DNA of 64,000 nt from Streptomyces sp. NBC_00247. GTDB lineage: Bacteria; Actinomycetota; Actinomycetes; Streptomycetales; Streptomycetaceae. Shown here piece by piece: positions 36,560 through 41,354 of this stretch. A program made the position numbers and the translations under genes. The notes below the pieces were generated by a model. It was not told the DNA's origin. It was given only the letters and a program-made list of their open reading frames with translations, and searched no databases. The stretch is from the NCBI RefSeq assembly GCF_036188265.1, contig NZ_CP108093.1, forward strand, positions 620,001 to 684,000. The letters are read 5' to 3'. Position 1 is the first letter of the stretch, and each line of letters starts with the position of its first letter.

Positions 36560-37647
36560 CGGGGACTTCCGCCGCTTCCGGCGCTTCCGGCTCCTCCTCC
36601 GCCGCCGCCGAGGGGCTCGACGCCCGACTCGTGGTGGACCGGGGCGCCTTCCGCCTGGACGTGGCGCTGGGCGCCCGGCCCGGCGAGGTCCTCGCGCTGC
36701 TGGGGCCGAACGGCGCGGGGAAGACCACGGCGCTGCGCGCGCTCGCCGGCCTCACCCCGCTCTCCGAGGGGCATCTGCGGCTGGACGGGGCCGCGTTGAC
36801 GGGTGTCCCGCCGGAGTCGCGGCCGGTCGGGGTCGTCTTCCAGGACTACCTGCTCTTCCCGCACCTCTCGGCCCTGGACAACGTGGCTTTCGGGCCGCGC
36901 TGCCGGGGCGTCGCCAAGTCCGAGGCGCGGGCCCAGGCCGCCGCGTGGCTGGAGCGCATGGGGCTCACCGACCGGGCCGGGGCGAAGCCGCGCCGGCTCT
37001 CCGGCGGTCAGGCCCAACGCGTGGCGCTCGCCCGCGCGTTGGCGACCCGCCCCCGGCTGTTGCTGCTGGACGAGCCGCTGGCCGCGCTCGACGCCCGTAC
37101 CCGCCTCGACGTCCGTTCCCAGCTCCGGCGCCACCTCGCCGAGTTCGAGGCGGTCGCGGTGCTGGTCACGCACGATCCGCTGGACGCGATGGTCCTCGCC
37201 GACCGGTTGGTCGTGATCGAGCACGGCCAGGTCGTCCAGGAGGGCGCGCCGTCGGACATCGCCCGCCGTCCGCGTACGGACTACATCGCCCAGCTCGTCG
37301 GCCTCAACCTCTACCGGGGACAGGCCGAGGGCCACACGGTCCGGCTCGACGCCGGGCCCGCCATCACCACCACCGAGGACCTCACCGGACCGGTGTTCGT
37401 GGCCTTCCCCCCGAACGCGGTCACCCTGCACCGCGACCGCCCCACCGGTTCCAGCGCCCGCAACCTCTGGCGGTGCGAGGTCGCGGGGCTGGAGGCGCGA
37501 CGCGACCAGATCCGCGCGGACCTCGCGGGCGAACTCCCTCTCGCCGCCGACCTCACCACGGTCGCCGCCGCCGAGCTCGACCTGCACCCGGGAGCCCCGG
37601 TCTGGGCTACGGTCAAGGCCGCGCAGACGCACGCGTACCCGGCCTGA
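36556..37647 (+). CDS. modC: Molybdate ABC transporter ATPase ModC
   Basis: 363-residue ATPase with Walker A LGPNGAGKTT, Q loop VFQDYLLFPHLSA, signature LSGGQAQRVALARAL, Walker B LLLLDEPLAALD and H loop VTHDPLD. A C-terminal TOBE region follows (about 300-363). Together with modA and modB it forms a complete importer, which supplies molybdenum for the molybdopterin oxidoreductase encoded at 45330-46625 and other Moco enzymes. Confidence 0.95.
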   Translation: MTGTSAASGASGSSSAAAEGLDARLVVDRGAFRLDVALGARPGEVLALLGPNGAGKTTALRALAGLTPLSEGHLRLDGAALTGVPPESRPVGVVFQDYLLFPHLSALDNVAFGPRCRGVAKSEARAQAAAWLERMGLTDRAGAKPRRLSGGQAQRVALARALATRPRLLLLDEPLAALDARTRLDVRSQLRRHLAEFEAVAVLVTHDPLDAMVLADRLVVIEHGQVVQEGAPSDIARRPRTDYIAQLVGLNLYRGQAEGHTVRLDAGPAITTTEDLTGPVFVAFPPNAVTLHRDRPTGSSARNLWRCEVAGLEARRDQIRADLAGELPLAADLTTVAAAELDLHPGAPVWATVKAAQTHAYPA

Positions 37648-37681: not shown

Positions 37682-37751
37682 CGACACCACCGTGACACCG
37701 GCCTGGCGCGCCATGGCGCCACCTGACACCACGTGGCACCACATGGCACCA
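37682..37751. repeat. Helically phased tandem operator-like octamers
   Basis: Octamers related to TGGCRCCA start at 37682, 37693, 37704, 37714, 37724, 37734 and 37744, a spacing of 10-11 bases. The best copies are TGGCGCCA (37714), TGACACCA (37724) and TGGCACCA (37734, 37744). Further copies occur at 37783 (TGGCATCA) and 37849 (TGACACCA). They place a binding site once per helical turn, upstream of a gene for a ribbon-helix-helix protein. Confidence 0.7.
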
Positions 37752-37873
37752 CTCCGCACGTCATTCCATCGGGAACCCTCCGTGGCATCACACCCGCCAC
37801 GGGTAACTTCTCGCCGTTTCCGCAGCTCAGAGCGGTGCGGGGAAGCCCTGACACCACACAGGCGCCGCCAGGC

Positions 37874-37910
37874 TTGCGCATGGCGCCATCGTGGTGCCAT
37901 TATGGCGTCA
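37874..37910 (+). promoter_or_regulatory. Leaderless promoter with three operator octamers
   Basis: TTGCGC (37874-37879), an 18-base spacer and CATTAT (37898-37903) place the transcription start at about the ATG at 37910. No ribosome site precedes that ATG, so the mRNA is probably leaderless. Octamers at 37881 (TGGCGCCA), 37892 (TGGTGCCA) and 37903 (TGGCGTCA), each 11 bases apart, cover the whole core promoter. Confidence 0.6.
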
Positions 37911-38422
37911 TGGACCTCACCCCGTATGTCGAGACCCTCCGCCGCGAACTCGCGGTGGCCGCCGAAGCCGGCGGCGACGACGCCCGCGAGCTGGCCGAGA
38001 GGCTCACCGCTCCCCTGGAGTCGGCGACCCGCCTGACCCTGCTCAACGTGCTCTCCGCCGCGATGGACGAGGTCACCCGCGAGCTCGCCCCGGGCTCCGT
38101 CGACGTACGGCTCCGCGGGCTCGACCCCGACTTCGTGGTGACCCGGCCGCCGGCCGACTCCCCCGCGGAGCCGGCCGCTCCCGTCGAACCGCTCTCCGCG
38201 CAGGCGTCCACCGAGAGCGACGAAGGCGGCACCGCCCGCGTCAACCTGCGCCTGCCGGCCCACCTCAAGGCACGCGCCGAGGAGGCCGCGAGCCGCGAGG
38301 GCCTGTCGGTCAACGCGTGGCTCGTACGGGCCGTGTCGGGCGCCGTCGACGGTGGCAGCCGGCCGCGCGCGACGGAGAGGGTCCAGGCACTCGGGCAGAG
38401 CTTCACCGGCTGGGTCCGCTGA
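37910..38422 (+). CDS. Ribbon-helix-helix regulator (HicB-antitoxin-like)
   Basis: 170 residues. The C-terminus (about 107-155) is a ribbon-helix-helix DNA-binding domain: ARVNLRLPAHLKARAEEAASREGLSVNAWLVRAVSGAV. The N-terminus is helical (YVETLRRELAVAAEAGGDDARELAERLTAPLESATRLTLLNVLSAAMDEVTRELAPGSVDVRL), and a variable linker joins them. Such proteins are often annotated HicB-family antitoxins, but no toxin gene is adjacent. The following genes encode a DUF4097 protein and an ABC exporter. Phased octamers in front of it strongly suggest autoregulation, with an RHH dimer per octamer. Confidence 0.85.
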   Translation: MDLTPYVETLRRELAVAAEAGGDDARELAERLTAPLESATRLTLLNVLSAAMDEVTRELAPGSVDVRLRGLDPDFVVTRPPADSPAEPAAPVEPLSAQASTESDEGGTARVNLRLPAHLKARAEEAASREGLSVNAWLVRAVSGAVDGGSRPRATERVQALGQSFTGWVR

Positions 38423-38610: not shown

Positions 38611-39462
38611 ATGCCTTCTTTCGACACCCCTGAAGCGATCTCGGTCACCGCCCGCGTGGAGGCCGGATCCATCCAGTTCACGGCGGGCGACCGCCTCGAC
38701 ACCGTCGTCGCGGTGAGCCCTCGCGACCCGAAGCGGGACATGGACGTGCGGGCGGCCGGCCAGACCGAGGTGACGTACGCGAACGGCGCACTGATCGTCA
38801 GGACGCCCAAGTCCGGCCTGTTCGGCCGCACCGGAATCGTGGACGTGGCGGTCGAACTGCCCTCGGGCTCACGGATCGACATGACCGGCGCCTGGACCCA
38901 GGTAATCGGCGAGGGGCGCCTCGGCGAGGTCCGCGTGAAGACCTCGTCGGGCGACGTCCGCCTCGACTCGACCGGGCCCCTCCGACTGACCGCCTCCCAC
39001 GGTTCGGTCACCGTGGACCGGATCGAGGGGCAGGCCGAGATCACCACCAGCTCCGGGAGCCTGCGCATCGGCCTCGTCGACGGCCCGGCCGTCCTGAAGA
39101 ACTCGCACGGCACCACGACCGTCCGGGCCGTCACCGGCGACCTGCGGGTGAGCGGCGCCCACGGTGACATCGAGATCCACCGGGCGGAAGACTCGGTCAC
39201 CGCCACCACCGCCTACGGCACCTTGCGCGTCGGGGACGTGGCCCGGGGCACGGTCCAGCTGGAGACGAACTACGGGGCCATCGAGATCGGTGTCCGCGAG
39301 GGTTCGGCCGCCTGGCTCGACGCGAGTTCGGGCTCCGGCCAGGTACGCAACACGCTCACCGCGTCCGAGGCTCCGGCCGACTCCGCGAGCGCCGACACCG
39401 TCGTCAAGGTCCGCGCTCGGACCCGGCACGGCAACATCGACGTCCGCCGCGCCTCGAACTGA
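38611..39462 (+). CDS. DUF4097 beta-strand-repeat protein
   Basis: 283 residues from the ATG at 38611 with AGAGGA upstream. The protein is a run of short beta strands with repeated Ser/Gly-Asp turns: VRVKTSSGDVRLDSTG, LTASHGSVTVDRIEG, ITTSSGSLRIGLVDG, KNSHGTTTVRAVTGDLRVSGAHGDIEIH. This is the DUF4097 right-handed beta-helix pattern. There is no signal peptide, so it is probably cytoplasmic, unlike many DUF4097 proteins that are secreted. It sits between the RHH regulator and the ABC exporter. I recall this gene order from other Streptomyces genomes, which suggests a functional unit of unknown purpose. Confidence 0.85.
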   Translation: MPSFDTPEAISVTARVEAGSIQFTAGDRLDTVVAVSPRDPKRDMDVRAAGQTEVTYANGALIVRTPKSGLFGRTGIVDVAVELPSGSRIDMTGAWTQVIGEGRLGEVRVKTSSGDVRLDSTGPLRLTASHGSVTVDRIEGQAEITTSSGSLRIGLVDGPAVLKNSHGTTTVRAVTGDLRVSGAHGDIEIHRAEDSVTATTAYGTLRVGDVARGTVQLETNYGAIEIGVREGSAAWLDASSGSGQVRNTLTASEAPADSASADTVVKVRARTRHGNIDVRRASN

Positions 39463-39528: not shown

Positions 39529-40566
39529 ATGCCTTCTCATGTCATGCCCACATCCAATCAGAGGGACGGCCGACCGTCCCCGGCCGCCGTCTCCGCCGTC
39601 GGCCTGCGCAAGTCCTACGGCGACAAGACCGTCCTCGACGGCATCGACCTGGCCGTCCCGGCCGGGTCCGTGTTCGCGCTGCTCGGTCCGAACGGGGCCG
39701 GCAAGACCACCGTCGTCAAGATCCTCTCGACCCTCATCACCCCCGACGCCGGCCAGGCCCAGGTCGCCGGCCACGACCTGGCCGCCGCGCCGCAGGCGGT
39801 ACGGGCCGCGATCGGCGTCACCGGCCAGTTCTCGGCGGTGGACGGCCTGATCACCGGCGAGGAGAACATGCTCCTCATGGCCGACCTGCACCACCTCCCC
39901 ACAACGGAGGGCAAGCGGGTCGCCGCCGGACTGCTGGAACGCTTCGACCTCACCGACGCGGCGAAGAAGCCCGCCTCCACCTACTCCGGCGGCATGAAAC
40001 GCCGCCTCGACATCGCCATGACCCTGGTCGGCGACCCCAGGATCATCTTCCTCGACGAACCCACCACCGGACTCGACCCCCGCTCCCGCCACACCATGTG
40101 GGGCATCATCCGCGAACTCGTCACCGGCGGCACCACCGTCTTCCTCACCACCCAGTACCTCGACGAAGCCGACGAACTCGCCGACCGCATCGCCGTCCTC
40201 CACGACGGCAGGATCGCCGCCGAAGGCACCGCCGACGAACTCAAGCGCCTCGTCCCCGGCGGACACGTCCGCCTCCGCTTCACCGACCCCGCCCCCTACC
40301 GCGAAGCCGCGACCGCCCTGCCCGACGCCGCCCGCGACGACGACGCCCTCACCCTCCAGATCCTCAGCGACGGCAGCCAGCGCGAACTGCGCACCATCCT
40401 CGACCGCCTCGACACCGCAGGCGTCGAAGCCGACGAACTCACCGTCCACACCCCCGACCTCGACGACGTGTTCTTCGCCCTCACCGACACCACCCGCGTC
40501 CCCCACCAGGCGGACCAGCAGGCCCCGCAGCCGCAGCCGCTCCCGTCCAAGGAGGACGTCCGATGA
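39529..40566 (+). CDS. DrrA-type ABC exporter ATPase
   Basis: 345-residue ATPase of the daunorubicin-resistance family: Walker A LLGPNGAGKTT, ITGEENMLLMADLHHLP, signature TYSGGMKRRLDIAMTLVGDP, Walker B IIFLDEPTTGLDPRSR and the C-terminal DrrA domain. The codons of its second half are almost uniformly C-ending. It is coupled by ATGA (40563-40566) to the permease. It probably exports a hydrophobic compound or envelope component; substrate unknown. Confidence 0.92.
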   Translation: MPSHVMPTSNQRDGRPSPAAVSAVGLRKSYGDKTVLDGIDLAVPAGSVFALLGPNGAGKTTVVKILSTLITPDAGQAQVAGHDLAAAPQAVRAAIGVTGQFSAVDGLITGEENMLLMADLHHLPTTEGKRVAAGLLERFDLTDAAKKPASTYSGGMKRRLDIAMTLVGDPRIIFLDEPTTGLDPRSRHTMWGIIRELVTGGTTVFLTTQYLDEADELADRIAVLHDGRIAAEGTADELKRLVPGGHVRLRFTDPAPYREAATALPDAARDDDALTLQILSDGSQRELRTILDRLDTAGVEADELTVHTPDLDDVFFALTDTTRVPHQADQQAPQPQPLPSKEDVR

Positions 40567-41354
40567 GCTCCCTCTCCCTCGCCGTGCGCGACTCGTCCAC
40601 GATGCTGCGCCGCAACCTGCTGCACGTGCGGCGCTACCCCTCGCTCACGCTGAACCTGCTGCTCACGCCGGTGATGCTGCTCCTGCTCTTCGTCTACGTC
40701 TTCGGCGACACCATGAGCGCGGGCATCGGCGGTGGCGGCGCGGACCGCTCCGAGTACCTCAGGTACCTGGTCCCCGGCATCCTGATGCTGACCATCGGCG
40801 GAACCACCATCGGCAGTGCGGTCTCCGTCTCGATGGACATGACCGAGGGCATCATCGCCCGCTTCCGCACCATGGCGATCCACCGGGGATCGGTCCTCAT
40901 CGGCCACGTCCTCGGCAGCGTGCTGCAGTGCGTGATGAGCGTGGTCCTGGTCGCCGCCGTCGCGGTGGCGATCGGATTCCGGTCCGCGGACGCCACCGTG
41001 CTGGAGTGGCTGGCAGCGGTGGGACTTCTGACGCTCGTCTCCCTCGCCCTCACCTGGATCGCCGTCGGCATGGGCCTGTCCAGCCCGAACGTCGAGGCGG
41101 CGAGCAACAACGCGATGCCGCTGATGATCCTGCCGCTCCTCTCCAGCGCGTTCGTCCCGCTCGACGCGATGCCCGGCTGGTTCCAGCCGGTCGCCGAGTA
41201 CCAGCCGTTCACCCCGGCCATCGAGACCCTGCGCGGACTCCTGCTCGGCACTGAGATCGGCGACAACGGTCTCATCGCCGTCGCCTGGTGCCTGGGCCTC
41301 TCGGTCCTCGGCTACCTCTGGTCCACGTCTCTCTACGACCGCGACCCGAAGTAG
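40563..41354 (+). CDS. DrrB-type ABC-2 permease
   Basis: 263-residue ABC-2 membrane component with six predicted helices and the family segments LRRNLLHVRRYPSLTLNLLLTPVMLLLLFVYVFG and PLMILPLLSSAFVPLDAMPGWFQPVAEYQPFTPAIETLRGLLLG. It completes the exporter with the preceding ATPase. A strong terminator 20 bases downstream ends the unit. Confidence 0.92.
   Translation: MSSLSLAVRDSSTMLRRNLLHVRRYPSLTLNLLLTPVMLLLLFVYVFGDTMSAGIGGGGADRSEYLRYLVPGILMLTIGGTTIGSAVSVSMDMTEGIIARFRTMAIHRGSVLIGHVLGSVLQCVMSVVLVAAVAVAIGFRSADATVLEWLAAVGLLTLVSLALTWIAVGMGLSSPNVEAASNNAMPLMILPLLSSAFVPLDAMPGWFQPVAEYQPFTPAIETLRGLLLGTEIGDNGLIAVAWCLGLSVLGYLWSTSLYDRDPK

Follow-up and report, generated by a model that had tools for sequence, protein, structure and literature searches.

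Dimers of the ribbon-helix-helix (RHH) repressor Arc occupy half-sites 11 bp apart. For the plasmid ParR-parC systems (R1, pSK41 and pB171), passages of PMC5016525 describe RHH proteins which place one dimer on each 10-bp repeat over many repeats, repress a promoter and form a helical nucleoprotein structure. The omega regulator of pSM19035 also uses one RHH dimer per repeat, and its polymerisation on promoter repeat arrays has been suggested (passages of PMC4803016). In RelB-relO, sections of PMC2812701 place the RHH dimers on one helix face and report that altered half-site spacing abolishes repression, which a 10-base insertion did not restore. An RHH factor which replaces GntR in Toastrack-ABC operons is also in print, in passages of PMC11237479 where the Toastrack protein is proposed to be a sub-membrane signalling platform; the terms "operator", "leaderless" and "palindrom" are absent from the main text of that article, and its passages with "promoter" and "binding site" deal with other systems. 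Passages of PMC9866976 show that an antibiotic cluster of Streptomyces lunaelactis also holds DUF4097 and DrrA-type genes, a 177-aa protein of unknown function preceding one DUF4097 gene. Both the RHH-Toastrack-ABC operon type and RHH autorepression on repeat arrays are already known. In the open-access literature, we found no account of a phylum-wide octamer operator joined to a leaderless start, of a link between an octamer operator and Toastrack-ABC genes, or of the residue-112 code described below, and searches combining the octamer with Streptomyces returned nothing relevant.

The locus studied here lies in a 64-kb window (the whole stretch of DNA analysed), which is part of a 7.34-Mb single-contig genome. 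It presents, in this order on the forward strand, an RHH regulator of 170 aa (37910..38422), a DUF4097 (Toastrack) protein of 283 aa (38611..39462; PF13349, 49.9 bits for a cut-off of 22.9), a DrrA-like ABC transporter ATPase (39529..40566; TIGR01188, 315.4 bits for a cut-off of 312.45) and an ABC transporter permease (40563..41354), whose start overlaps the ATPase stop and which was named by its position and conserved synteny. This is the same gene set as that of the actinobacterial operons in the passages of PMC11237479. Like Arc and Mnt, the regulator is a predicted RHH protein, with weak family-profile matches; unlike them, it carries its RHH close to the C-terminus, after a conserved N-terminal domain, and its gene is preceded by twelve octamer-like sites, one of which overlaps the start codon. 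The array differs from that of ParR-parC in lying partly inside the promoter and in being followed by Toastrack and ABC exporter genes, with no partition motor. The omega regulator uses heptads, whereas the repeats here are octamers at 10-11 bp, and RelB-relO, in the sections cited above, has two 12-bp half-sites and a toxin as co-repressor. Comparing the upstream region, the protein and their homologues, we propose that the RHH protein encoded just downstream very probably uses the octamers as its operator, and that it would be an Arc-like autorepressor of the putatively leaderless RHH-DUF4097-ABC promoter.

The operon is conserved well beyond the window. Of 80 named loci, 79 have DUF4097 next to the RHH gene (the sole miss ends 249 bp downstream) and 71 have a DrrA-like ABC ATPase further downstream, three of the nine misses having less than 1.2 kb of sequence; among 20 chosen distant loci, tblastn detected DUF4097 in 17 and the two ABC genes in 6. 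The unit does not extend to the transporter genes that lie upstream in the window: the ATPase gene ending at 37647 has ABC_tran and TOBE matches and is of the molybdate type, judging by its neighbours. These surroundings bear on two different explanations of the locus. According to the first, the array would be centromere-like, as in ParR/parC, with repression as a secondary effect: ParR is itself an RHH protein binding 10-bp iterons one dimer each, the split array of R1 flanks a repressed promoter (passages of PMC5016525), and an RHH homologue was found on 43 plasmid records. Repeats at 10-11 bp and an RHH gene are present here, and the RHH protein is predicted to bind the repeats, but the partition reading fails because no motor gene adjoins the RHH gene; by family search, the two next genes encode DUF4097 and an ABC ATPase, not an actin-like motor, and the window sits in a 7.3-Mb contig. 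We regard this explanation as scarcely credible. The same holds for the second, a toxin-antitoxin locus of the HicAB type, suggested by the name "toxin-antitoxin system HicB family antitoxin" which some homologues bear in public databases, on some of the plasmid records among others. The regulator does match PF05534 above the cut-off (23 bits against 21), but the adjacent conserved gene is DUF4097, and HicA (PF07927) had 0 matches in the whole genome with a search that was positive in 7 of 14 control genomes; it is because the genome is without HicA that the HicAB reading fails. The name "HicB family antitoxin" is misleading for the RHH gene here, and a gene filed in databases as an orphan antitoxin can now be predicted to regulate its own Toastrack-ABC operon, an operon type which gains at the same time a searchable predicted operator.

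The twelve octamer-like sites lie in the gap between the end of the upstream ABC ATPase gene (37647) and the RHH start (37910), most of them separated by steps of 10-11 bp, and nine are exact matches to TGRYRYCA. When the 277-bp region was simulated with a first-order model, exact matches averaged 0.16 and were never more than 4 in 20,000 runs; the entire window has 16, including these nine. Seven sites form a distal phased array (37682..37751): CGACACCA at 37682, TGACACCG at 37693, TGGCGCGC at 37704 (with 2 mismatches to TGRYRYCA), TGGCGCCA at 37714, TGACACCA at 37724 and TGGCACCA at both 37734 and 37744, giving successive steps of 11, 11, 10, 10, 10 and 10 bp. Three others, starting at 37881, 37892 and 37903 and separated by 11 and 11 bp, are in the promoter. 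The initial annotation had described seven octamers every 10-11 bases followed by three every 11, which the coordinates and the simulated site density confirm, and to which two isolated copies can now be added, TGGCATCA at 37783..37790 (-127, a position where 12 of 90 same-genus loci have an exact octamer) and TGACACCA at 37849..37856 (-61). Its statement that every good copy is palindromic holds for just two of the twelve (37714 and 37881), the other ten being imperfect, even though the class TGRYRYCA is itself self-complementary.

In the promoter, a -35-like hexamer TTGCGC (37874..37879, forward strand) is followed after an 18-bp spacer by a -10-like hexamer CATTAT (37898..37903, forward strand), with the ATG (37910) 6 bp further on. 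The first octamer of this trio, TGGCGCCA (37881..37888, -29), is in the spacer, the second, TGGTGCCA (37892..37899, -18), covers the 5' end of the -10, and the third, TGGCGTCA (37903..37910, -7), begins on the final base of the -10 and ends on the A of the ATG. In 172 homologous promoters, the start codon is ATG in 168, GTG in 3 and GTC in 1, TTG is found between -40 and -27 in 151, and a Shine-Dalgarno-like word (AGGA or GAGG, -20 to -4) occurs in just 3. With a -10 directly 5' of the start codon and the Shine-Dalgarno absent, a leaderless start, as already suggested by the initial annotation, is strongly implied by the sequence and constitutes its simplest reading.

The octamer pairs are specific to this locus. 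In the 7.3 Mb genome, the tandem pattern TGRYRYCA-N2-3-TGRYRYCA was found at five places, all of them at the RHH locus, and its reversed control at none. RHH homologues are present in 90 of 150 same-genus genomes, and those 90 have a mean of 2.32 tandem pairs, at least one being found in 80, while the 60 RHH-negative genomes have a mean of 0.42, with at least one in 17; the means of the control pattern are 0.37 and 0.48, respectively, so that the pairs of the RHH-negative genomes are at control level. The tandem pairs come and go with the RHH locus, which says nothing about the regulation of other genes. Upstream of the 90 homologues, we counted a mean of 5.02 exact octamers per 300 bp (at least four in 74 of the 90 loci), compared to 0.08 over the initial 303 bp of the coding regions of the same loci; pairwise distances of 10 bp (55 cases) and 11 bp (112 cases) dominate over those of 9 bp (1) and 12 bp (4), and distal octamers are also present in many homologous loci. 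The initial annotation is supported on several points: the octamers, whose lack of conservation between related genomes it had named as a ground for refutation, are conserved there and so is their 10-11 bp phase, and their assignment to the RHH gene holds, since they are found again in front of its homologues and vary together with one residue of the predicted DNA-binding strand (see below). Such arrays had also been called rare in Streptomyces promoters, which stands within this genome, where the pairs occur only here, but not at the RHH gene, where they are common.

Beyond the genus, a class-wide sample of 296 genomes yielded RHH homologues in 101 (E <= 1e-5), representing 38 of 114 genera, and in 22 of 198 genomes of a phylum sample (E <= 1e-10), 15 of these being outside the class. 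The promoter trio is still recognisable at 35-38% protein identity and is also seen outside the class, where certain of the remotest loci (L314 and L318) show no trio at the assigned start. In the 172 distinct promoters, a site with at most one mismatch was found at -29 in 159, at -18 in 150 and at -7 in 147 (a 1-bp shift being allowed at -29 and -18); shuffled upstream sequence gave 1.4, 1.8 and 0.6%, respectively. All three sites with at most one mismatch are present in 122 of the 172 Actinomycetota homologues, the other 50 promoters being without at least one of them, and the whole trio appeared in 0 of 3,420 shuffled sequences. Judged by these comparisons, the octamer-operator design is old. 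In one genome outside the class (L311/L320), the RHH gene copy is broken and the octamer promoter still recognisable.

The regulator itself was modelled with AlphaFold2 (mean pLDDT 65). Its N-terminal part comprises helices within residues 4-59, a hairpin (63-78) and a low-confidence stretch (83-108); the RHH part consists of a strand (109-115) and two helices (117-129 and 134-147), with blocks of pLDDT 60-83 over the helices and a strand which spans blocks at 41 and 67. The strand-helix-helix of the MetJ/Arc RHH superfamily, with its alternating DNA-facing strand residues, is present at moderate model confidence, and the strand residues R110 and R114 are invariant in the 172 homologues (172/172). 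Comparison of the family profile with the PDB returned Mnt, Arc, AmrZ, KacA and others, all of them weakly (E 0.007-0.7), the weak Arc match aligning profile positions 109-150 with chain residues 7-48 over equal spans. A search of solved structures with just the 48 residues of the RHH returned no RHH repressor, and Foldseek gave no match at E <= 0.001. VIA-align matched F-plasmid relaxosome chains, which we take to be TraY, as well as CopG and Arc at Z 4-5 (4.1-4.7 for the Arc chains), tied with unrelated helical entries. With the whole protein sequence as query against solved structures, residues 11-55 matched TAL-effector chains (E from 4e-6, no stretch passing alone), and the family profile matched an apolipoprotein; both were read as due to helix composition. 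The C-terminal tail (residues 163-170, window positions 38396-38419) is also conserved, with G167 and W168 nearly invariant, and is predicted to be a low-confidence strand; it is possible that this tail is a contact point for DUF4097.

The connection between protein and octamers comes from residue 112, in the middle of the predicted DNA-reading strand, which is Asn in 120, Thr in 35 and Ser in 17 of the 172 homologues. For the loci with an exact octamer (118 Asn, 35 Thr and 17 Ser), the share of half-sites with G3/C6 is 0.82 for Asn, 0.23 for Thr and 0.42 for Ser: Asn112 pairs with TGGCGCCA, Thr112 with TGACGTCA, and Ser is intermediate. In a phylogenetic regression, residue 112 came first of 143 variable columns (dAIC 51.1, LR 55.1, p 1e-12), the runner-up for positions 3/6 being the adjacent residue 111 (12.7). 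Taking GC as a covariate left residue 112 with an LR of 53.3, upstream GC being equal in the three groups (0.68). The shift is also seen inside families: in f18, ten Asn loci have a share of 0.90 and seven Thr loci 0.40, and f47 (2 Asn, 1 Thr) and f54 (1 and 1) shift in the same direction. Outside the window's own family, the ranges overlap (Asn 0.50-1.00, Thr 0-0.67, Ser 0-0.70). Between Asn and Thr/Ser, residue 112 changed only 5 times, with a single independent pair on supported branches, which goes in the expected direction in 0.9 of pairings and shows no difference in 0.1, and a sign test cannot reach significance with only that one pair. For octamer positions 4/5, no single residue stood out clearly, the best columns being 121 (dAIC 18.6) and 113 (13.1). 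Because residue 112 co-varies with positions 3/6, there is strong indirect evidence that the RHH protein would bind the octamers through the strand 109-115; repeats and probable reading residue having changed together across actinobacteria, the system looks like an old self-control switch. The relation amounts to a natural recognition code predicted for an RHH strand, which can be tested by swapping one residue.

From these data, the following mechanism can be proposed. One RHH dimer would dock on each octamer, its two-stranded ribbon (R110, N112 and R114 from both subunits) entering the major groove, and since the sites are spaced by one turn, neighbouring dimers are predicted to be set on one DNA face by the 10-11 bp step, where they would probably touch, as Arc dimers do. 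Together, the promoter octamers extend over the spacer, the -10 and the start point, which would leave little room for RNA polymerase, and repression is predicted for that reason: their occupancy should exclude the polymerase, so that the RHH protein would repress its own transcript, predicted to be leaderless, along with the DUF4097-ABC genes further downstream. From position only, we infer repression and not activation. The distal group may raise the local concentration of the protein and sharpen the response. A third site running into a leaderless start codon, phylum-deep, would make this a good system to learn how many phased dimers a repressor needs.

The cooperative part of this mechanism can be dispensed with if the RHH protein fills its sites independently, with no dimer-dimer contacts or filament, the phase coming from promoter geometry and array duplication; the core of our explanation would be kept. 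The 11-bp promoter step coincides with the -35/-10/start spacing, duplication of repeats could produce distal arrays, and the phase between distal sites and promoter is only moderate over all 123 loci with sites upstream of -60 (R 0.37, for a null maximum of 0.22, relatedness being ignored). We nevertheless think independent filling unlikely, given that distal steps of 10-11 bp recur where the arrays differ in number and place, and that in 50 loci outside the window's family the octamers upstream of -40 are strongly in phase with the trio (R 0.70, for a null mean of 0.26, with 0 of 300 nulls reaching it, again ignoring relatedness). Going beyond autorepression by phased dimers, one may speculate that the regulator is linked through its conserved N-terminal domain to the Toastrack protein, and that the latter may pass on signals of envelope or drug stress, releasing the repressor. 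A full version of this idea, which we put forward tentatively and hold to be more probably wrong than right, would be a single-protein switch responding phylum-wide to envelope or drug stress, with cooperative RHH binding on a phased multi-site operator joined to a leaderless start codon, the Toastrack protein of the same operon as a membrane-side anti-repressor, a threshold set by array length and a recognition code arising from the co-evolution of operator and residue 112 (Asn for G3/C6, Thr for A3/T6).

The upstream region contains a separate element, TTTCCGCAGCTCAG (37817..37830, near -91 of the RHH start), with 1 mismatch to TTTYCGCAGGTCAG. The core of TTTYCGCAGGTCAG (at most 2 mismatches) is present upstream of 56 of the 90 same-genus RHH homologues and in 0 of 90 coding controls, with 46 copies oriented one way and 10 the other, a few being at scattered positions. 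Other factors may use the region through this second conserved element, and it could be argued that another regulator binds the octamers and controls the operon, the RHH protein acting elsewhere. This is very improbable in view of the first rank of residue 112 for the octamer letters after tree correction, among all 143 RHH columns, and of the control-level tandem pairs of the same-genus genomes that lack RHH, both of which favour the RHH protein as the octamer-binding factor. The element near -91 is not specific to the RHH operon but genus-wide: exact copies of TTTYCGCAGGTCAG were found in 21 of 21 same-genus genomes, with 0 for the reversed control in each, and a literature search on TTTYCGCAGGTCAG found nothing related. 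In the genome of the window, where the element occurs at many places, inspection by eye placed exact copies ahead of a TrkA-like gene and of a tRNA gene as well as close to DnaA-box-like words.
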